A DNA stretch of 32,198 nucleotides from an uncultured delta proteobacterium (GTDB lineage: Bacteria; Myxococcota_A; Polyangia; Polyangiales; Polyangiaceae). The stretch covers positions 1-32,198 of the forward strand of contig CAIVJW010000130.1 of assembly GCA_903906315.1 (NCBI GenBank). Direction: 5' to 3'. Positions 1,490 through 26,022 of this stretch are shown piece after piece. Position 1 is the first letter of the stretch. Every line of letters starts with the position of its first letter. Both the position numbers and the translations under genes were made by a program. Below the pieces are notes generated by a model that was given only the letters and a program-made list of their open reading frames with translations, had not been told where the DNA came from and did not search any database.

Positions 1490-3151
1490 CTACGCGGGAC
1501 CGGGCGCGACCGCGTCGCCGCCTTCCCCCGGGTCGACGTGGTGCTGGCGGGGGCGCGGTCGGAGGATCTTCACGCCGATCCGGCGCAGCTCGGCCTCGCC
1601 GCGTGCGTGGGCGACGCGCGCGCGCACGCTGAGCGCCCGTCCCGCCGCCTCGGCGGCGTCACCGAGCGCGGGCGGCGGGGCGACCGGCGGGTCGTCCGAG
1701 GGGTCGGCTGGGGGGACGGCCACGACGTCCCAGGGGGGCGTGAGGCCGGGCTCGAACGGCGGCGTCGACCAGGTGACCGCGACGCCGGCGCGGGCGAGCC
1801 TGCGCACCCCTTCGCGCAGCGCGTCGATCTTGCGTGGCTCGGGCGGAACGCCGATGACGTGCACGCGGCTCGCGTGGGGCTTGGTGCGCGCGATCTGGAT
1901 GAGCGCGTCGGCGATCGCGTCGCTGGTCGCGGCGCGATCGGGCTCCGTGCGCGGGGGCGAGTCGATGCCGTAGGCCGCGAGGTAGCGACGCAGCACGCGC
2001 TCGCGCATCGATCGGCCTCCCGGCGAGGGGACCGGGAAGGGGGCGCGCATGCGCATGGCCTCCGCGCGCACCGCGAGCTTGTCGAGATCGCCGCGACGCA
2101 CGTCGGGCAAGCCGCGCGGGTCGAGCGGGCGCAGGTGCTCGAGGACGCGGACCGCGACGTCGAGCTCGTCGAGGTCGCTGCGGTCCGCGTCGTGGCAAGC
2201 GGTCGCCGCGAGGAGCGCCTGGACGATGCGGTGGCCCTGCGAGGGCCCCAGCCCGGGCGGGACGGTCGCGCGGTTGCCTGTCGCGACCACCGTGAGGCCG
2301 ACCCGGTCCCCGCGGGCGAGGTGGCGCGTCGCGACGGAGGCGGCTTCGTCGATCGCGAGGTCGAGCGGGGCGCGTCCGAGCGGACCGGCCCAGAGCTCGA
2401 CCGAGGCGTCGAGCACGATCCACACGACGTCGCGCTCTTCGCGCTCGAACTCGCGCACGAGCAGCACGCCGCGGCGCGCGCTGGCCTTCCACGCGATGCG
2501 CCGGAACGGGTCCCCGGGCTGGTGCTCGCGCAGCTCGCGCAGGTCGCTGCCCTCACCGCGCACGCGCCCGGCGCGGCCGGCCGTCGCCGCGAGCCGGCTT
2601 CGACCTCCGCGCGGCTCGAGGAGGTAGGTGGCGAGTGATCTCGGCAGCACCTCGACGCCGTACGGGTTCGCGAAGGTCAGCGGCACCTCGAACATGCCCG
2701 ACGCGCCGCGCACCTCGAGCGCGAGGCCGTGCAGGCCGTGCAGGCCGACCCGCGGCGCGGTCACGAGCACGCGCACCTTGAGTCGACCGGAGGCCGCGAC
2801 CTCACCCGCGCTCGGCTCGATACGCACGTCGAGCTGGGTCGACGCCACGGCCCGGAGCTTGACGTAGCGGGCCGCGAGCGTGTCGCGGTTGCGCACCTCG
2901 GCCGCCAGCTCGATGGTGTTGCCGCGCGCGGTGCGCGTGACGCGTCGCGAGCCGCTCCACAGCATCTCGAAGCCCGCGGCGCGGATGCGCGCGACCGAGA
3001 GCAGCGTCACGGTGCGAGCCAGCGCGACCGCGACGAGCAGCGCGCCGCCCCAGCCCACGATCGCGGGCTCTTGAGCGGCGAGCCCGACGCCGAGCACGAC
3101 CGATCCCGCGACGGCGACGTGCGAGCTCGTGCGGGTGGGGTAGAGGTGCAT
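1490..3151 (-). CDS. DUF58 domain membrane-associated protein
   Basis: About 553 residues. Two hydrophobic segments near the N-terminus (about 13-27 and 31-50) are followed by an extracytoplasmic-type beta region and then the DUF58 core, with GDPFRRIAWKASARRG and a downstream VVWIVLDAS, which resembles a degenerate vWA start. DUF58 proteins are normally encoded beside MoxR ATPases, as here, and are thought to work with them in assembling or maturing periplasmic or membrane complexes; the substrate is unknown. The C-terminal third is Arg/Pro-rich and less conserved. The ATG at 3151 places the membrane helices at the start but has no clear ribosome site. The frame stays open upstream through the 51-bp repeats because that period is a multiple of three, so a longer form cannot be excluded. 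Confidence 0.85.
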   Translation of the reverse strand: MHLYPTRTSSHVAVAGSVVLGVGLAAQEPAIVGWGGALLVAVALARTVTLLSVARIRAAGFEMLWSGSRRVTRTARGNTIELAAEVRNRDTLAARYVKLRAVASTQLDVRIEPSAGEVAASGRLKVRVLVTAPRVGLHGLHGLALEVRGASGMFEVPLTFANPYGVEVLPRSLATYLLEPRGGRSRLAATAGRAGRVRGEGSDLRELREHQPGDPFRRIAWKASARRGVLLVREFEREERDVVWIVLDASVELWAGPLGRAPLDLAIDEAASVATRHLARGDRVGLTVVATGNRATVPPGLGPSQGHRIVQALLAATACHDADRSDLDELDVAVRVLEHLRPLDPRGLPDVRRGDLDKLAVRAEAMRMRAPFPVPSPGGRSMRERVLRRYLAAYGIDSPPRTEPDRAATSDAIADALIQIARTKPHASRVHVIGVPPEPRKIDALREGVRRLARAGVAVTWSTPPFEPGLTPPWDVVAVPPADPSDDPPVAPPPALGDAAEAAGRALSVRARVAHARGEAELRRIGVKILRPRPRQHHVDPGEGGDAVAPGPA

Positions 3152-3167
3152 CGTTGGGTAGCGGCCT

Positions 3168-3349
3168 GACGAGCCCACGCAAGATGGGCGGTGTCCCGGG
3201 CCACGGCGGCCCCCTCGAGACGAGCCCACCGGAGGTGGGCGGGGTTTGGGGCCACGGCGGCCCCCTCGAGACGAGCCCACCGGAGGTGGGCGGGGTTTGG
3301 GGCCACGGCGGCCCCCTCGAGACGAGCCCACCGGAGGTGGGCGGGGTTT
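3168..3349. repeat. 51-bp tandem repeat, three full copies and one partial
   Basis: Full units lie at 3197-3247, 3248-3298 and 3299-3349. The last two are identical and the first differs at 3197. A diverged partial unit covers 3168-3196. Each unit contains two hairpins: GCCCACC-gga-GGTGGGC and GGGGCC-acggc-GGCCCC. The array fills the gap between the moxR stop and the DUF58 start. The identical copies suggest recent expansion or conversion. Confidence 0.9.
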
Positions 3350-3367
3350 GGGGCCGCTCGCGGCCCC
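3350..3367 (-). terminator. Stem-loop directly after moxR
   Basis: GGGGCCGC and GCGGCCCC form a perfect 8-bp stem with a 2-nt turn, starting 7 nt after the moxR stop codon. There is no T-tract. The segment 3353-3377, which includes the stop codon, is identical to 6165-6189 on the other strand. It may be a transcription end, a 3'-end stabiliser, or a dispersed repeat. Confidence 0.5.
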
Positions 3368-3374
3368 ATCGCGA

Positions 3375-4345
<971 letters not shown>

Positions 4346-4349
<4 letters not shown>

Positions 4350-5990: not shown

Positions 5991-6167
5991 ATGCTCCCTC
6001 CGTTCATCATCGAGCAGATCAGGCAGCGGGAAGAGAAGGAGCGCGCTCGCCATGACGAGCAGCGTCCCCGTCTCGAGCTGCCGCTCGATCGCATGCCGGC
6101 GCCGCGTCGCACCCCGGACGACGAGGACGACCCGAATCGCGGCGTCATCGTCATCGACTTGGTCTAG
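5991..6167 (+). CDS. Small conserved LPPFIIE-type protein
   Basis: A 58-residue protein of unknown function. It begins MLPPFIIEQIRQREEKERAR, continues as a charged helix, then a Pro-rich and acidic stretch (RTPDDEDDP), and ends RGVIVIDLV, a hydrophobic beta-like tail. From memory, short proteins with an LPPFIIE start and a similar hydrophobic end are common in myxobacteria and other large-genome bacteria; this could not be checked here. GGAGGAG sits at 5980-5986, 4 nt before the ATG, and a promoter lies at 5893. It is followed at once by a stem-loop shared with moxR. No signal peptide and no cysteines. The two ends look conserved and the middle looks disordered, which would suit an adaptor (inference). 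Confidence 0.8.
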   Translation: MLPPFIIEQIRQREEKERARHDEQRPRLELPLDRMPAPRRTPDDEDDPNRGVIVIDLV

Positions 6168-6174
6168 TCGCGAT

Positions 6175-6192
6175 GGGGCCGCGAGCGGCTCC
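6175..6192 (+). terminator. Stem-loop after the LPPFIIE gene
   Basis: GGGGCCGC pairs with GCGGCTCC (one G-U pair) around a 2-nt turn, 7 nt after the stop codon. Segment 6165-6189 repeats 3353-3377 exactly, inverted. It lacks a T-run. Confidence 0.45.
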
Positions 6193-6339
6193 AAGGCCCG
6201 CGCGGGCAGGTGGCGCTGAACGCTCGGGCCGAGCGGCCGCGACGGTGCCGCGCAGCTCGTTCCTGGCCGTGGTGAGCGGTCGAAGCGTCGCGAGGCCCTC
6301 TCCGTGCTCTCCCCGCGGAAGGGCCCCGTGAGGGCGGCC

Positions 6340-6458: not shown

Positions 6459-6734
6459 ATGGCCGTTCACATCCGTCTCGCTCGCGCGGGCACCACCAAG
6501 ACGCCCTTTTATCGCATCGTCGTCGCCGATCAGCGGAGCCCCCGCGGCGGCCGCTTCATCGAGCGCGTCGGCACCTACGATCCCCGTCGCACGGAGATCC
6601 GCGTCGATGGGGCGCGCATCAAGCACTGGATCTCGCGTGGCGCGCAGGCTTCGGCCACCGTGGCGCTTCTCCTCCGGCGTCCCGAGTGCCAGGACTCGAG
6701 CGCGCTGGCCCAGATCGCTCCTGCGGCCAAGTAG
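6459..6734 (+). CDS. rpsP: 30S ribosomal protein S16
   Basis: S16 binds 16S rRNA early in assembly of the 30S body. The 91-residue product starts MAVHIRLARAGTTKTPFYRI and has VVADQRSPRGGRFIERVGTYDP, both hallmarks of S16, followed by the WISRGAQASATVALLLRR segment and a short tail. The ATG at 6459 has GAGG 10 nt upstream; the frame is open further upstream but without homology. It opens the classic rpsP-khpA-rimM-trmD cluster, with khpA starting 3 nt after its stop. Confidence 0.97.
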   Translation: MAVHIRLARAGTTKTPFYRIVVADQRSPRGGRFIERVGTYDPRRTEIRVDGARIKHWISRGAQASATVALLLRRPECQDSSALAQIAPAAK

Positions 6735-21480: not shown

Positions 21481-23694
21481 ATGCCCGCGTCGTCCATCCT
21501 CGAGCTGCGTGGCGAGGCCCTGCCGGCGGACGTGCTGGCCATTCGCTACGAAGCGCGCGAGGCCCTTTCCCGGCCGTACGAGGTCGAGGTCGAGTTTTCG
21601 ACCACCGATTTCGCGTTCCGGGTCGAGGACTGCCTGCGCACTCGCATGGTCCTCCAGCTCGTCGACGCGCGCGGAGGAGTGCGGTCCTTCGACGGGGTGA
21701 TCGACCGCGCCGAGTACGCCTACGTCACCGGCCCGCGGCTCCATTTTCGCGTCCGGCTGCGGCCGTCGATCGCGGCGCTGGCGCGGCGCGAGGGCTGCCG
21801 CATCCACCAGAACAAGAGCGTCGTCGACATCGCGGGGCTCGTCCTGCGGGAGGCGGGCATCGACAAGGTCGAGTGGCAGCTCGTCGAGACCTACGAGCCG
21901 CGCGATTTCGTCGTGCAGTATCGGGAGTCGCAGCTCGACTTCATCCATCGCCTCTTCGAGGACGAGGGCATCTTCTACTTCTTTCGACACGACGCCGACG
22001 GGCACGTGCTGATCGTCGCGGACTCGCCGTCGGCGTTCACGCTCATGGACGACGCGCCCGCGGTCGAGTTCTCCATGTCGCAGGGGGGCGGCGAGCCTCT
22101 CAAGGACTTCTCGCGCAAGCTCGCGCTGCGCACGACGAGCGCGAGGCTGCGCGACTACGATTTCGAGAAGCCGCAGAGCAAGCCCGAGGCGCAGGTCCCG
22201 GGCCCCGATGCGTGGCCGATGCCGCTCTACGAGTACCCGGGCGGCTTCCTCAAGGCTGCGGCGGGGCAGCGCAAGGCCAAGGCGCGTCTCGCGTCCGAGC
22301 GTCGCGACGCCGACACCGTTCGTGGAGCCAGCCGCGCGATCGGCCTGCGCGTCGGCGTGCCGTTCGCCGTCGACGGCGCGGCCCAGCCCTGCCTGAACGG
22401 CGAGTTCGTGGTGACGGAGCTGCGCACGTGGGGCGAGCAGACGCTCGAGAGCGGCGGCGCCAACGAGGTCTGCAGAAACCAGTTCGTCGGCATCCCCAAG
22501 GACTCCCCCTGGGCGCCCGCGCGCGTGACGCATCGGCCGCGGATCCGGGGCATTCAGACGGCCCGCGTCATGGGGCCGAGCAGCGAGGAACAGGCGATCC
22601 ACGTCGACAAGTACGGTCGCGTGAAGGTGCGCTTCCACTGGGACCGCGAGGGCCAGCAGGACGACACGGCGAGCTGCTGGCTGCGCGTCGCGCAGCTGGC
22701 GACGGGCGGCTCCATGGTGCTCCCGCGCGTCGGCTGGGAGGTCGCGGTGACCTTCGCCGACGGCGATCCGGACCGGCCCTTCGTGCTCGGCCGCGTCTAC
22801 AACGCCGAGAAGACGCCGCCGTACGCGCTCCCGGGCGCGCAGACGTCCGGTGCGCTCAAGAGCCTGTCGAGCCCGGGCGGCGCCGGCTACAACGAGATCA
22901 AGATGGGCGATAGCGGGGGCAGCCAGGGCTGGGACCTGCACGCGCAGAAGGACCTCAACATCACGATCAACCACGACCGCAAGGAGACCATCGACGTCGA
23001 CGAGTCCCACACGGTCAAGGTCAACGTCGCCTGGCACGTCGGATCGAACGAGAGGCTCACCGTCGGCGGCAACCAGTCGGTCGACGTCGGCGCGGACCGG
23101 CAGGACCTGATCGGCGGCAACCAGTCGGTCGACGTCGGCGGCAACGAGACGTTCGACGCGACGTCGAACCTGCTCGAGAAGATCGGCGGCGATCGATCGT
23201 ACGGGGTCGGCGGCAACCAGGTGGTCATCTCGAACTCGGTCGCTCAGTCGATCGAGGGCAACTTCAGCCGCACGGTCGGCGCCGTGCAGCTGACCGGGTC
23301 GGTCGACGAGATCGGCGAGAACGTCGCCGGGTCGCACACGGAGACCGTCGGCGCGGTGAAGATCGAGCTCGTGAAGGGCGACAGCGCCGAGGAGATCGCC
23401 GGCAACAAGACCCTGACGGTGGCGGTGGCGGATCTGCACCTGATCAAGGGCAACCTCGCCATCAGCGCGGAGGGATCGACCACGCAGCTCGTGGGCGGGC
23501 TGCACTACCAGAAGATCGCCGGCGATTTTTCGATCAAGGCGCCCGTCATCACGCTCCTCGGCGCCGTCGGCGTGTTCAAGGGGGGCGGCAGCGAGCTCAA
23601 GCTCGGCGGCGGCCCGGTCGTGATCAAGGGCGACAAGATCGCGATCGAAGCCGCGCTCGTCGTCAAGATGGGCGCCTCGCTGAAGCTCAAGTGA
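21481..23694 (+). CDS. vgrG: VgrG spike protein 1
   Basis: A T6SS spike protein; trimers cap the Hcp tube and are fired into target cells. The 737-residue product has the gp27-like N-terminal region (ALSRPYEVEVEFSTT, YRESQLDFIHRLFEDEGI), then the gp5-like OB segment from about 379 (GRVKVRFHWDREGQQDD, GSMVLPRVGWEV, DGDPDRPFVLGRVYN), and a beta-helix from about 475 built of VGGNQSVDVG-type repeats, ending KMGASLKLK. No toxin extension. The ATG at 21481 is preferred; GTG at 21460 would add seven residues. A 30-nt stretch at 23063 recurs exactly at 23111, within the beta-helix repeats. An 81-nt gap with a hairpin separates it from vgrG2. Confidence 0.95.
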   Translation: MPASSILELRGEALPADVLAIRYEAREALSRPYEVEVEFSTTDFAFRVEDCLRTRMVLQLVDARGGVRSFDGVIDRAEYAYVTGPRLHFRVRLRPSIAALARREGCRIHQNKSVVDIAGLVLREAGIDKVEWQLVETYEPRDFVVQYRESQLDFIHRLFEDEGIFYFFRHDADGHVLIVADSPSAFTLMDDAPAVEFSMSQGGGEPLKDFSRKLALRTTSARLRDYDFEKPQSKPEAQVPGPDAWPMPLYEYPGGFLKAAAGQRKAKARLASERRDADTVRGASRAIGLRVGVPFAVDGAAQPCLNGEFVVTELRTWGEQTLESGGANEVCRNQFVGIPKDSPWAPARVTHRPRIRGIQTARVMGPSSEEQAIHVDKYGRVKVRFHWDREGQQDDTASCWLRVAQLATGGSMVLPRVGWEVAVTFADGDPDRPFVLGRVYNAEKTPPYALPGAQTSGALKSLSSPGGAGYNEIKMGDSGGSQGWDLHAQKDLNITINHDRKETIDVDESHTVKVNVAWHVGSNERLTVGGNQSVDVGADRQDLIGGNQSVDVGGNETFDATSNLLEKIGGDRSYGVGGNQVVISNSVAQSIEGNFSRTVGAVQLTGSVDEIGENVAGSHTETVGAVKIELVKGDSAEEIAGNKTLTVAVADLHLIKGNLAISAEGSTTQLVGGLHYQKIAGDFSIKAPVITLLGAVGVFKGGGSELKLGGGPVVIKGDKIAIEAALVVKMGASLKLK

Positions 23695-23775: not shown

Positions 23776-26022
23776 ATGCCGGAGCTCGTGAACGTTGACA
23801 TCGAGGTGGCCGTCGACGGGCAGGCCTATCGCGCGCTCGGCGTGTCGGCGCGCGAGGGGCTCTCCGAGGTCGGCGCCGTCGTCGTGGACCTGGTGTCGCC
23901 CGACGGCGCGCCCGACCCCCGAACACTCGTCGGCAAGGCCGTCGAGGTCGGCCTGCGTCGCGCCGACGGCAGCGCCTCGAGGTCGTGGGTCGGGTTCGCG
24001 GCCGAGGCCGAGCGCCTCGCCGATCAGGACGGGCGCCCCGCTACGCGCCTCCTCGTCACGCCGCGCTTGCAGCGGTTGGCGAAACGCGCCGATTGCAGGA
24101 CGTTTCAAGAGCTGTCGGTGCCCGACATCGTGAAGAAGGTCCTCTCGGACGCCGGAATGCCGGAGGCCGACCAGACCTGGACGTTGTCGCAGAGCTACTC
24201 GCCGCGCGTGTACGCGGTGCAGTACCGCGAGACCGATCTCGACTTCGTCCTCCGGCTGCTGTCCGAGGAGGGCATCGGCCTCGCGGTGCGCTTCGACGGC
24301 GGGGCCGACAAGGTCGCCTTCTGCGACGATCCCAAGGGCTTCGGCGATGTCGAGGGCACGACCGAGCTCCCGTTCGCGCACACGTTCGGCTTCGACACGT
24401 CCGAGGACAACGTCCTCTTCGTGCGGCAGGTGCACGAGGTCCGATCGGACAAGGTCTTTGTCCGCGACTACGACTTCGAGCGACCGAAGCTGAAGCTCGA
24501 GGCCGAGGTGTCCGGCGGCGACCCGGGCGCGAAGGCGCTCGAGGTCTATGCGTGGCCGGGTCGGTTCACCGACCAGGGCGTCGGTGATCGCTACGCGCAG
24601 GTGCTGCTCGACTCGATGCAGGCCGAGCGGGACGTGGTGGCGGGCGAGGCGACGGCGATGAACCTGCAGCCGGGCCTCCGCTTCTCGATCACTGGACACC
24701 CTTACGAGGGGCTCAATCAGGAGTACCTCGTCGTGTCGGTCGAGACGGAGGCGCGCGACCGCACGGCCATGAGCCCCACGGGCGGGTCGGGCCGGCAGTA
24801 CGCGTGCAGGTTCACCGCGGTGCCGACCGGCCGCAGCGCGTGGCGGCCGCCGCGCCGACCGCGAGCGCGCGTGGCGCCGGGGTTCGCGTCGGCGTTCGTC
24901 ACGGGGCCGAGCGGGTCGGAGATCCACACCGACAAGCTCGGCCGCGCGAAGGTGCGCTTCCACTGGGACCGCGTCGGCAAGCACGACGACACCTCGAGCC
25001 TCTGGGTGCGCACGCTCCAGCTACCGACCGGGGGATCGATGCTGCTCCCGCGCGTGGGCTGGGAGGTCGGGCTTCGCTACGTGGAGGGCGACGTCGACGC
25101 GCCGATCGTGATGGGGCGCATGGTCAACGCGGTCGCTCCGCCGCCGTACGCGCTGCCGGGTGGCAAGGCGCGGGGCGCGCTGCAGACGGCGACGACGCCC
25201 GGCGGTGGCAGCACGAACGAGATCCGCACCGACGACTCCAAGGGCGGCGAGGAGATGTTCTTCAACGCGTCGAAGGACATGTCCATCACGGTGCTCAACA
25301 ACACGACCGAGACGATCGGCAATTGCGAGACGCACGAGGTCGGATCGAACCACACGATCGACGTCACCAACAGCATCCAGGCCACCGTCGGCGCGTCGCA
25401 GACCCTCTCGGTCGGCGGCAACCAGACGGTGCACGTCGAGTCGCTGGCCGTCGACGACATCGCCGGCAACCACGAGCTTGCGATCGGCGGCAACCGGACG
25501 TTGCAGATCGGCGGCGATCATCGTCGCCAGGTCGCGGGCGGATCCACGCTCGACGTCGGCGGGAACGCGGTAGACCTCGTCGTCGGCGCGGTGAGCGAGG
25601 CGGCGGTTGGTGACCACACGCACACGGTCGGGGCCGCGCTGATCGAGATGACGGCGAAGGATCGGTCCCTCGTCATCGGCGGATCGCGCACGGAGACGAC
25701 GGGCGCCGTGAAGGTCGTCATCGCCGGAGGGGGCCGGTCGGTCACGGTCGGCGGGTCGATGACCGAGATGGTCGGCGGCGCCGTCCTCGCCAGCGTCAAG
25801 GGTGACCGCAGCGACAACGCCGGCTCGTCGTTCACGGAGATCGCGGCGGGGGCGTCGATCGTGAAGGCCGACAAGGTAGTGTTCGAGGCGGATACCGCGC
25901 TGTGCGTCGTGATGGGGGCGTCGATCCTCGCGCTGACGCCGGCGTCGGTGTCGATCGTGGGCGTCAGCGTCAAGATCGACGGGGCAGCGGCCGAGACGGC
26001 CGCGCTGATCACGGACAACTGA
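23776..26022 (+). CDS. vgrG: VgrG spike protein 2
   Basis: A 748-residue VgrG with a different N-terminus from VgrG1 (VNVDIEVAVDGQAYRALGVS), the family block VQYRETDLDFVLRLLSEEGI (about 150), and the OB segment from about 389 (GRAKVRFHWDRVGKHDD, GSMLLPRVGWEVGL, GRMVNAVAPPPYALPGG). The beta-helix repeats (VGGNQTVHVE, IGGNRTLQIGGD) run to about 700. The final 50 residues are hydrophobic strands with no enzymatic domain. GAGGGA sits 3 nt before the ATG. It is separated from vgrG3 by 4 nt. It is diverged enough from VgrG1 that a recent tandem copy is excluded; a heterotrimer of the three VgrGs is possible but not shown. Confidence 0.94.
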   Translation: MPELVNVDIEVAVDGQAYRALGVSAREGLSEVGAVVVDLVSPDGAPDPRTLVGKAVEVGLRRADGSASRSWVGFAAEAERLADQDGRPATRLLVTPRLQRLAKRADCRTFQELSVPDIVKKVLSDAGMPEADQTWTLSQSYSPRVYAVQYRETDLDFVLRLLSEEGIGLAVRFDGGADKVAFCDDPKGFGDVEGTTELPFAHTFGFDTSEDNVLFVRQVHEVRSDKVFVRDYDFERPKLKLEAEVSGGDPGAKALEVYAWPGRFTDQGVGDRYAQVLLDSMQAERDVVAGEATAMNLQPGLRFSITGHPYEGLNQEYLVVSVETEARDRTAMSPTGGSGRQYACRFTAVPTGRSAWRPPRRPRARVAPGFASAFVTGPSGSEIHTDKLGRAKVRFHWDRVGKHDDTSSLWVRTLQLPTGGSMLLPRVGWEVGLRYVEGDVDAPIVMGRMVNAVAPPPYALPGGKARGALQTATTPGGGSTNEIRTDDSKGGEEMFFNASKDMSITVLNNTTETIGNCETHEVGSNHTIDVTNSIQATVGASQTLSVGGNQTVHVESLAVDDIAGNHELAIGGNRTLQIGGDHRRQVAGGSTLDVGGNAVDLVVGAVSEAAVGDHTHTVGAALIEMTAKDRSLVIGGSRTETTGAVKVVIAGGGRSVTVGGSMTEMVGGAVLASVKGDRSDNAGSSFTEIAAGASIVKADKVVFEADTALCVVMGASILALTPASVSIVGVSVKIDGAAAETAALITDN

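Follow-up and report, generated by a model that had tools for sequence, protein, structure and literature searches.

The space between a moxR-type gene and a DUF58 gene in the window analyzed here, a stretch of 32,198 nucleotides, is filled by a tandem array of a palindromic element that is dispersed behind many genes in some soil myxobacteria from three genera of the Polyangiaceae. Each unit of the element consists of a stop codon (TAG or TGA), the sequence TCNCGAT, a hairpin of constant sequence (hairpin A), the sequence AAACCCC, and a second hairpin (hairpin B) whose sequence is free and whose pairing is conserved. We consider it probable that this is a lineage-restricted REP-like element with a stop codon of its own, that it functions in RNA as a hairpin at the 3' end of the upstream gene, and that it has been amplified locally at the moxR site.

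Structure of the array between moxR and the DUF58 gene

The earlier note had described a 51-bp tandem hairpin repeat at positions 3168-3349. The array was confirmed by Tandem Repeats Finder, which identified 4.1 copies of 51 bp at 3168-3375 (91% matches) with a score of 323, the runner-up within the window scoring 125, and a full unit folds into the 7-bp (GCCCACC/GGTGGGC) and 6-bp (GGGGCC/GGCCCC) hairpins that had been claimed. The end of the array was set too early in the note, and the last hairpin (3350-3367), which is 8 bp as written and the best conserved of the array, was thereby cut off. The array in fact reaches 3375, where it abuts the TAG stop codon of moxR (3375-3377, minus strand). 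The 223 nt from this stop to the ATG of the DUF58 gene (3151) are almost entirely hairpin array, composed of three good units and one degenerate unit at the DUF58 end. In the sense of the genes, unit 1 reads TAG TCG CGAT GGGGCCGC GA GCGGCCCC AAACCCC GCCCACC TCC GGTGGGC. The features concerned are listed below, where bit scores refer to a model (R1) of 52 units hand-picked out of 138.

1490-3151, minus strand: DUF58 gene downstream of the array, ATG at 3151 (Pfam PF01882, 9.2e-18; orthologs start at the matching place)
3168-3223, minus strand: unit 4, degenerate, at the DUF58 end (Tandem Repeats Finder; direct repeat D1, 91% identity over 86 nt); not among the R1 matches listed
3224-3274, minus strand: unit 3, resembling unit 2 (repeat analysis; R1 51.5 bits)
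3275-3325, minus strand: unit 2, with the hairpin A variant GGGGCC-GCCGT-GGCCCC and hairpin B (repeat analysis; R1 51.5 bits)
3326-3377, minus strand: unit 1, stop-proximal and canonical, with an exact core (sequence; 74.1 bits for R1, which itself includes this unit)
3326-3342, 3343-3349 and 3350-3367, minus strand: hairpin B, AAACCCC and hairpin A of unit 1, respectively (sequence)
3375-4349, minus strand: moxR-type AAA ATPase gene (AAA_3; Pfam PF07726, 2e-63; extent from the ortholog match; TAG stop at 3375-3377)
6165-6217, plus strand: another copy of the element, single and degenerate, with three mismatches in its core at 6171-6199 (R1 44.6 bits)

The degenerate copy at 6165-6217 opens with the TAG of a 58-codon ORF at 5991-6167 on the plus strand (MLPPFIIEQIRQREE...), and a start near 6459 presumably belongs to a product resembling ribosomal protein S16. 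Additionally, 24-bp repeats (CGGCGGCAACC...) were observed at 23036-23158 and 25459-25515, inside two long plus-strand ORFs. A CRISPR array was rejected as an identity for the moxR-DUF58 repeat, as its units follow one another directly and hardly differ along the whole 51 bp, rather than being repeats with unique spacers between them. A search of positions 2900-3700 against Rfam 15 returned five matches up to an E-value of 10, the best at 0.18 and all far under the gathering scores. When folded and compared with shuffled sequences, a single unit was only modestly better (z of -1.20 on the plus strand and -2.13 on the minus strand), and the stop-proximal 61 nt gave z of -2.30 and -3.06, respectively.

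Copies, distribution, and pairing of the element

The search of the genome for further units that the earlier note had called for revealed a dispersed family. At up to three mismatches, the 29-nt core of the element has 84 copies in the genome from which the window derives (hereafter the source genome); Minicystis rosea contains 324 and a Byssovorax MAG contains 30. The backward control of the core has none in any genome, which places the copies beyond chance. The core is nearly invariant among the three genera, and its exact form occurs in at least two named organisms, Minicystis rosea DSM 24000 and Byssovorax sp. MAG. Within the family, six of 108 genomes carry the core, comprising the three above and three with one copy each, and a class-wide search recovered the same six among 317 genomes and added none. 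A relaxed frame (CGATGGGG, 2-18 nt, CCCCAWACCCC) was found in 13 of the 317 class genomes and eight of 151 genera, with no match for its control. Since most genera examined are without the element, it is not a general requirement.

Model R1 had eight matches in G014 and 16 in G024, and the one inspected in each was element-like, although its inner stem differed. The model also had one weak match each in G013, G022, G043, and G044, all unlike the element, and a doubtful one in G019. Tandem units with a period of 46 bp were found in G111, G113, and G114, where each later unit starts with TAGTC or TAGTT. A genome from another family of the class (G177, locus L244) contains three cores embedded in a repeat unit of about 174 bp that forms additional hairpins. 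They have no adjoining stop and may be unrelated to the element. In G088 (L247 and L265), partial element heads (CGATGGGGCTCTTCG and CGATGGGGCTCTTAA) occur in short tandem ahead of a full core. In the source genome, which like that of Byssovorax is an incomplete draft, arrays were seen at contig ends (e.g., C112, C103, C303, C439, C244, C286, C358, and C364), and the repeat family therefore probably fragments the draft assembly.

As far as the open-access literature was searched, no description of the family was recognised and it appears to be undescribed. The available part of the Minicystis genome paper (PMC8436480) contains none of the terms 'intergenic', 'repetitive', and 'transposase', and uses 'repeat' for protein repeats. 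Those parts available of two REP papers contain no mention of 'myxo', 'Minicystis', or 'Polyangi' (PMC12306157) and of 'myxo', 'Sorangium', or 'Haliangium' (PMC3733652).

Hairpin B varies in sequence between loci while its pairing is largely retained. Among all 44 arrays of the source genome, its covariation score was 0.180 versus 0.084 in shuffles, none of 500 shuffles reached that value, and every slid version of the structure scored lower in this alignment (A5). In the same arrays 70.5% of the hairpin B cells pair, roughly three in ten being unpaired. At least six of the seven pairs were formed in 23 of these 44 arrays, versus 8.0 when the arms were dealt anew, and in 58 of 82 Minicystis arrays, versus 37.7; among the 12 Byssovorax arrays, for which a single loop length was tried, there were none. 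In the mixed alignment of the units behind R1 (A2), a version slid by +2 scored higher (0.131) than the structure itself (0.104), which we attribute to the 5-nt loop of Minicystis. At the loci looked at in other genera, the outer frame of hairpin A is constant, and its inner stem differs yet still pairs.

Position behind genes and at stop codons

A total of 139 arrays were examined, with 44 from the source genome, 12 from Byssovorax, and 83 representing part of the Minicystis copies. Genes were called by a home-made codon score. Sufficient upstream sequence was available for 132 arrays, and clear upstream coding was found for 99 of these, the other 33 being excluded from the orientation count. 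The array is in sense orientation to the upstream gene in all 99 cases (32 in the source genome, 11 in Byssovorax, and 56 in Minicystis), where random positions give 50%. An in-frame stop codon lies 2-20 nt ahead of the core in 78 of the 99, compared with 1.1-1.2% of random positions, and outside that range in 21. A spacing of 6 nt is the commonest in the source genome (16 of 24) and Minicystis (14 of 46), and shares that place with 7 nt in Byssovorax (three of eight each); at 6 nt, hairpin A begins 10 nt past the first base of the stop codon. In the source genome, 21 of 24 genes that carry the element terminate in TAG, versus 26 of 79 others (p = 3e-6). The corresponding counts in Byssovorax were four of eight with the element and five of 32 without, which is not significant (p = 0.059), and in Minicystis the element-bearing genes mostly end in TGA (38 of 46), no more commonly than elsewhere (199 of 263).

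The upstream genes are diverse. Seventeen of 20 scanned ORFs, taken from 31 in the source genome, match Pfam in varied families, and the element-bearing genes include what we take to be nuoH, purH, rpoZ, rpsI, and citrate synthase. Within multi-unit arrays of the source genome, the stop-proximal unit is closer to the consensus in 14 cases and the distal unit in two, with six ties (p = 0.004). The same comparison in Minicystis gave 24 versus 12 with six ties, which is not significant (p = 0.065). In an initial count the trend had been less marked (p = 0.06 and 0.26, respectively); detections less than 33 nt apart were then barred because hairpin B had counted as a unit, a threshold chosen after the initial count had been seen.

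Comparison of orthologs indicated that the moxR array is particular to this genome among those compared: in seven of seven other genomes, no element was found within 260 nt of the moxR ortholog. The distance from the moxR stop to the DUF58 start in the four closest orthologs is 2 nt (G014), 5 nt (Byssovorax), 7 nt (G031), and 44 nt (Minicystis). Among the pairs covered by retrieved sequence, three genes carry an element in more than one genus. The nuoH element is present in the source genome and Byssovorax and absent in Minicystis, the rpoZ element occurs in Minicystis with a degenerate copy in the source genome, and an element at one further gene is common to the source genome and Minicystis. 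In six other close pairs covered in this way (62-89% identity; L031 plus, L043, and L202 of the source genome, L121 and L026 of Byssovorax, and L115 of Minicystis), the ortholog is without the element, and the same is true of four weaker pairs (30-49% identity). The moxR junction hinted at a target duplication of CGATG, which the nuoH site did not confirm, and no clean target-site duplication was found. The Y1 transposase family PF01797, whose presence in a genome marks RAYT-mobilised REPs, had no match at an E-value of 0.001 in the incomplete drafts of the source genome and Byssovorax and one match of 26.1 bits (cut-off 23) in Minicystis. In a genome of 13.4 Mb (G109), nine PF01797 places were found, the most among the 23 genomes searched, along with zero core copies.

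The array belongs to the 3' end of moxR. The proposal that it tunes expression of the DUF58 gene remains plausible, given 223 nt in place of the 2, 5, or 7 nt in three of the four closest orthologs, while the idea that it is specific to the moxR-DUF58 pair has to be given up, as the element is one of many that are tied to the end of an upstream gene. Because a tight junction has been replaced by 223 nt, DUF58 expression would be expected to fall relative to that of moxR. The DUF58 frame is open upstream as far as 3517, and it had also been suggested that the array might be translated as a repeated peptide. Such an N-terminal extension of DUF58 is hardly credible: the orthologs, which lack the array, begin at the ATG matching 3151, past the array position, and half of the unit spacings in sampled arrays (38 of 76) are not multiples of three and break the frame.

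Candidate functions and relation to known REPs

The stop spacing, the fixed orientation, the conserved pairing, and the better-kept stop-proximal unit point to an action as RNA on the upstream gene, and the hairpins probably shape the ends of messages in this form. The element would arrive immediately 3' of a gene, supply or retain its stop codon, and then be copied in tandem in place. Once transcribed, hairpin A could meet the terminating ribosome, and the hairpins could protect the upstream message against 3' decay and set it apart from what follows, which here would separate moxR from DUF58. A more elaborate proposal is that of a mobile stop-codon cassette, namely a sequence-specific 3' RNA element with its own stop. 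Such a cassette would insert precisely at the ends of genes, always in the sense direction, and a dedicated factor would recognise it, such that many genes would come under a common post-transcriptional control and the number of tandem copies would determine how strong that control is. We put this forward as a speculation that is unlikely to hold.

Copy numbers that range from 324 to 0 within one family, the absence of the element at moxR of relatives, and the many degenerate distal units would all suit a passive selfish REP-like repeat, which has no host function and accumulates behind stops since insertion harms least there. We regard this reading as rather unlikely. Harmlessness predicts neither the fixed sense orientation (99 of 99) nor the 6-nt stop spacing (16 of 24, 14 of 46, and three of eight in the source genome, Minicystis, and Byssovorax, respectively), and two further observations also argue against it: hairpin B pairing survives sequence change, and in the source genome's arrays the stop-proximal unit is better preserved than the distal ones. 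A site acting at the level of DNA, either bound by a protein or used in uptake, with gene ends as safe places, could account for the near invariance of the 29-nt core in three genera. It is improbable, as strict sense orientation and stop spacing are unexpected for a double-stranded DNA site, and the core copies are split almost evenly between the two strands of the records (47/37 in the source genome, 170/154 in Minicystis, and 15/15 in Byssovorax).

The position and orientation at gene ends also fit a transcription terminator, in which the upstream transcript would stop at hairpins A and B and extra copies would add strength. At least four T within the 8 nt after hairpin B were found in three of eight Byssovorax cases, but in just one of 30 arrays in the source genome and two of 72 in Minicystis. 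This scarcity makes a canonical intrinsic terminator, with a GC hairpin and a T-run, unlikely, and it was rejected for the latter two genomes, while Byssovorax may differ. Moreover, elements lie within gene pairs expected to be cotranscribed (nuoH with the gene after it, and moxR with DUF58). Of the 139 arrays, 71 are followed by a gene in sense orientation and 49 by one in antisense, and for the other 19 the downstream gene was unassigned. A terminator is therefore an unlikely account overall, although one that depends on a factor may be considered.

The REP-like 3' RNA element that we favor has close counterparts among described REPs. The 29-nt core qualifies as a REP in the general sense, being palindromic, within the size of 20-40 bp, and present in many intergenic copies; hairpin B lengthens the whole unit to about 50 bp, beyond that size. 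According to the available part of PMC12306157, 446 of 4,072 REPs lie within 15 nt of a stop codon (260 of 496 in earlier work cited there), and work that it cites found E. coli REPs at this distance to stall ribosomes. As described there, these stop-near REPs are likewise short repeated palindromes of the 3' untranslated region, and their first stem is within about 10 nt of the stop. Compared by description, the Polyangiaceae unit differs in combining a constant with a covarying hairpin and in its one orientation to the upstream gene, and the distance from stop to core is 2-20 nt in 78 of the 99 arrays that could be assessed.

Two further REP classes are described in the available part of PMC3733652. 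The termini of GTAG REPs often provide a TAG stop codon, and in the two genomes plotted most of these REPs are near 3' ends; the Polyangiaceae element resembles them as dispersed palindromes behind genes and differs from that description in its CGAT stem foot, its head-to-tail copies, and the lack of PF01797 in the source genome and Byssovorax. A GTAG at 7-4 nt ahead of the core was seen in seven of 138 arrays (7/44 in the source genome, 0/12 in Byssovorax, and 0/82 in Minicystis), and the unpaired GTAG at the stem foot that defines the class was not found, the TAG lying 7 nt farther out and being mostly TGA in Minicystis. The CGTC REPs, as far as that part describes them, have a terminal CGTC, a stem opening with AT pairs, a CCA tail, no known dedicated transposase, and negligible head-to-tail copies. 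The Polyangiaceae element shares with them a stem of 8-9 bp and the lack of a known dedicated transposase, and differs in a stem that starts with GG rather than AT, a tail of AAACCCC rather than CCA, and copies that stand head to tail. CGTC was found 5-2 nt before the core in seven of 138 arrays (1/44, 0/12, and 6/82, in the same order), and the stem begins with GGGG and has no CGTC at its foot. By analogy, the element would work like stop-proximal REPs, yet it falls under neither the GTAG nor the CGTC tag definition.

The element would add to the cases in which palindromic repeats have colonised the region just past stop codons, here in a single orientation to the upstream gene and, in two of the three genomes rich in copies, with no REP transposase found. 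Because Minicystis rosea, a culturable type strain, carries 324 copies and empty orthologous sites are available for comparison, the old question of whether repeats of this kind serve as functional 3' elements or are passengers is directly testable.
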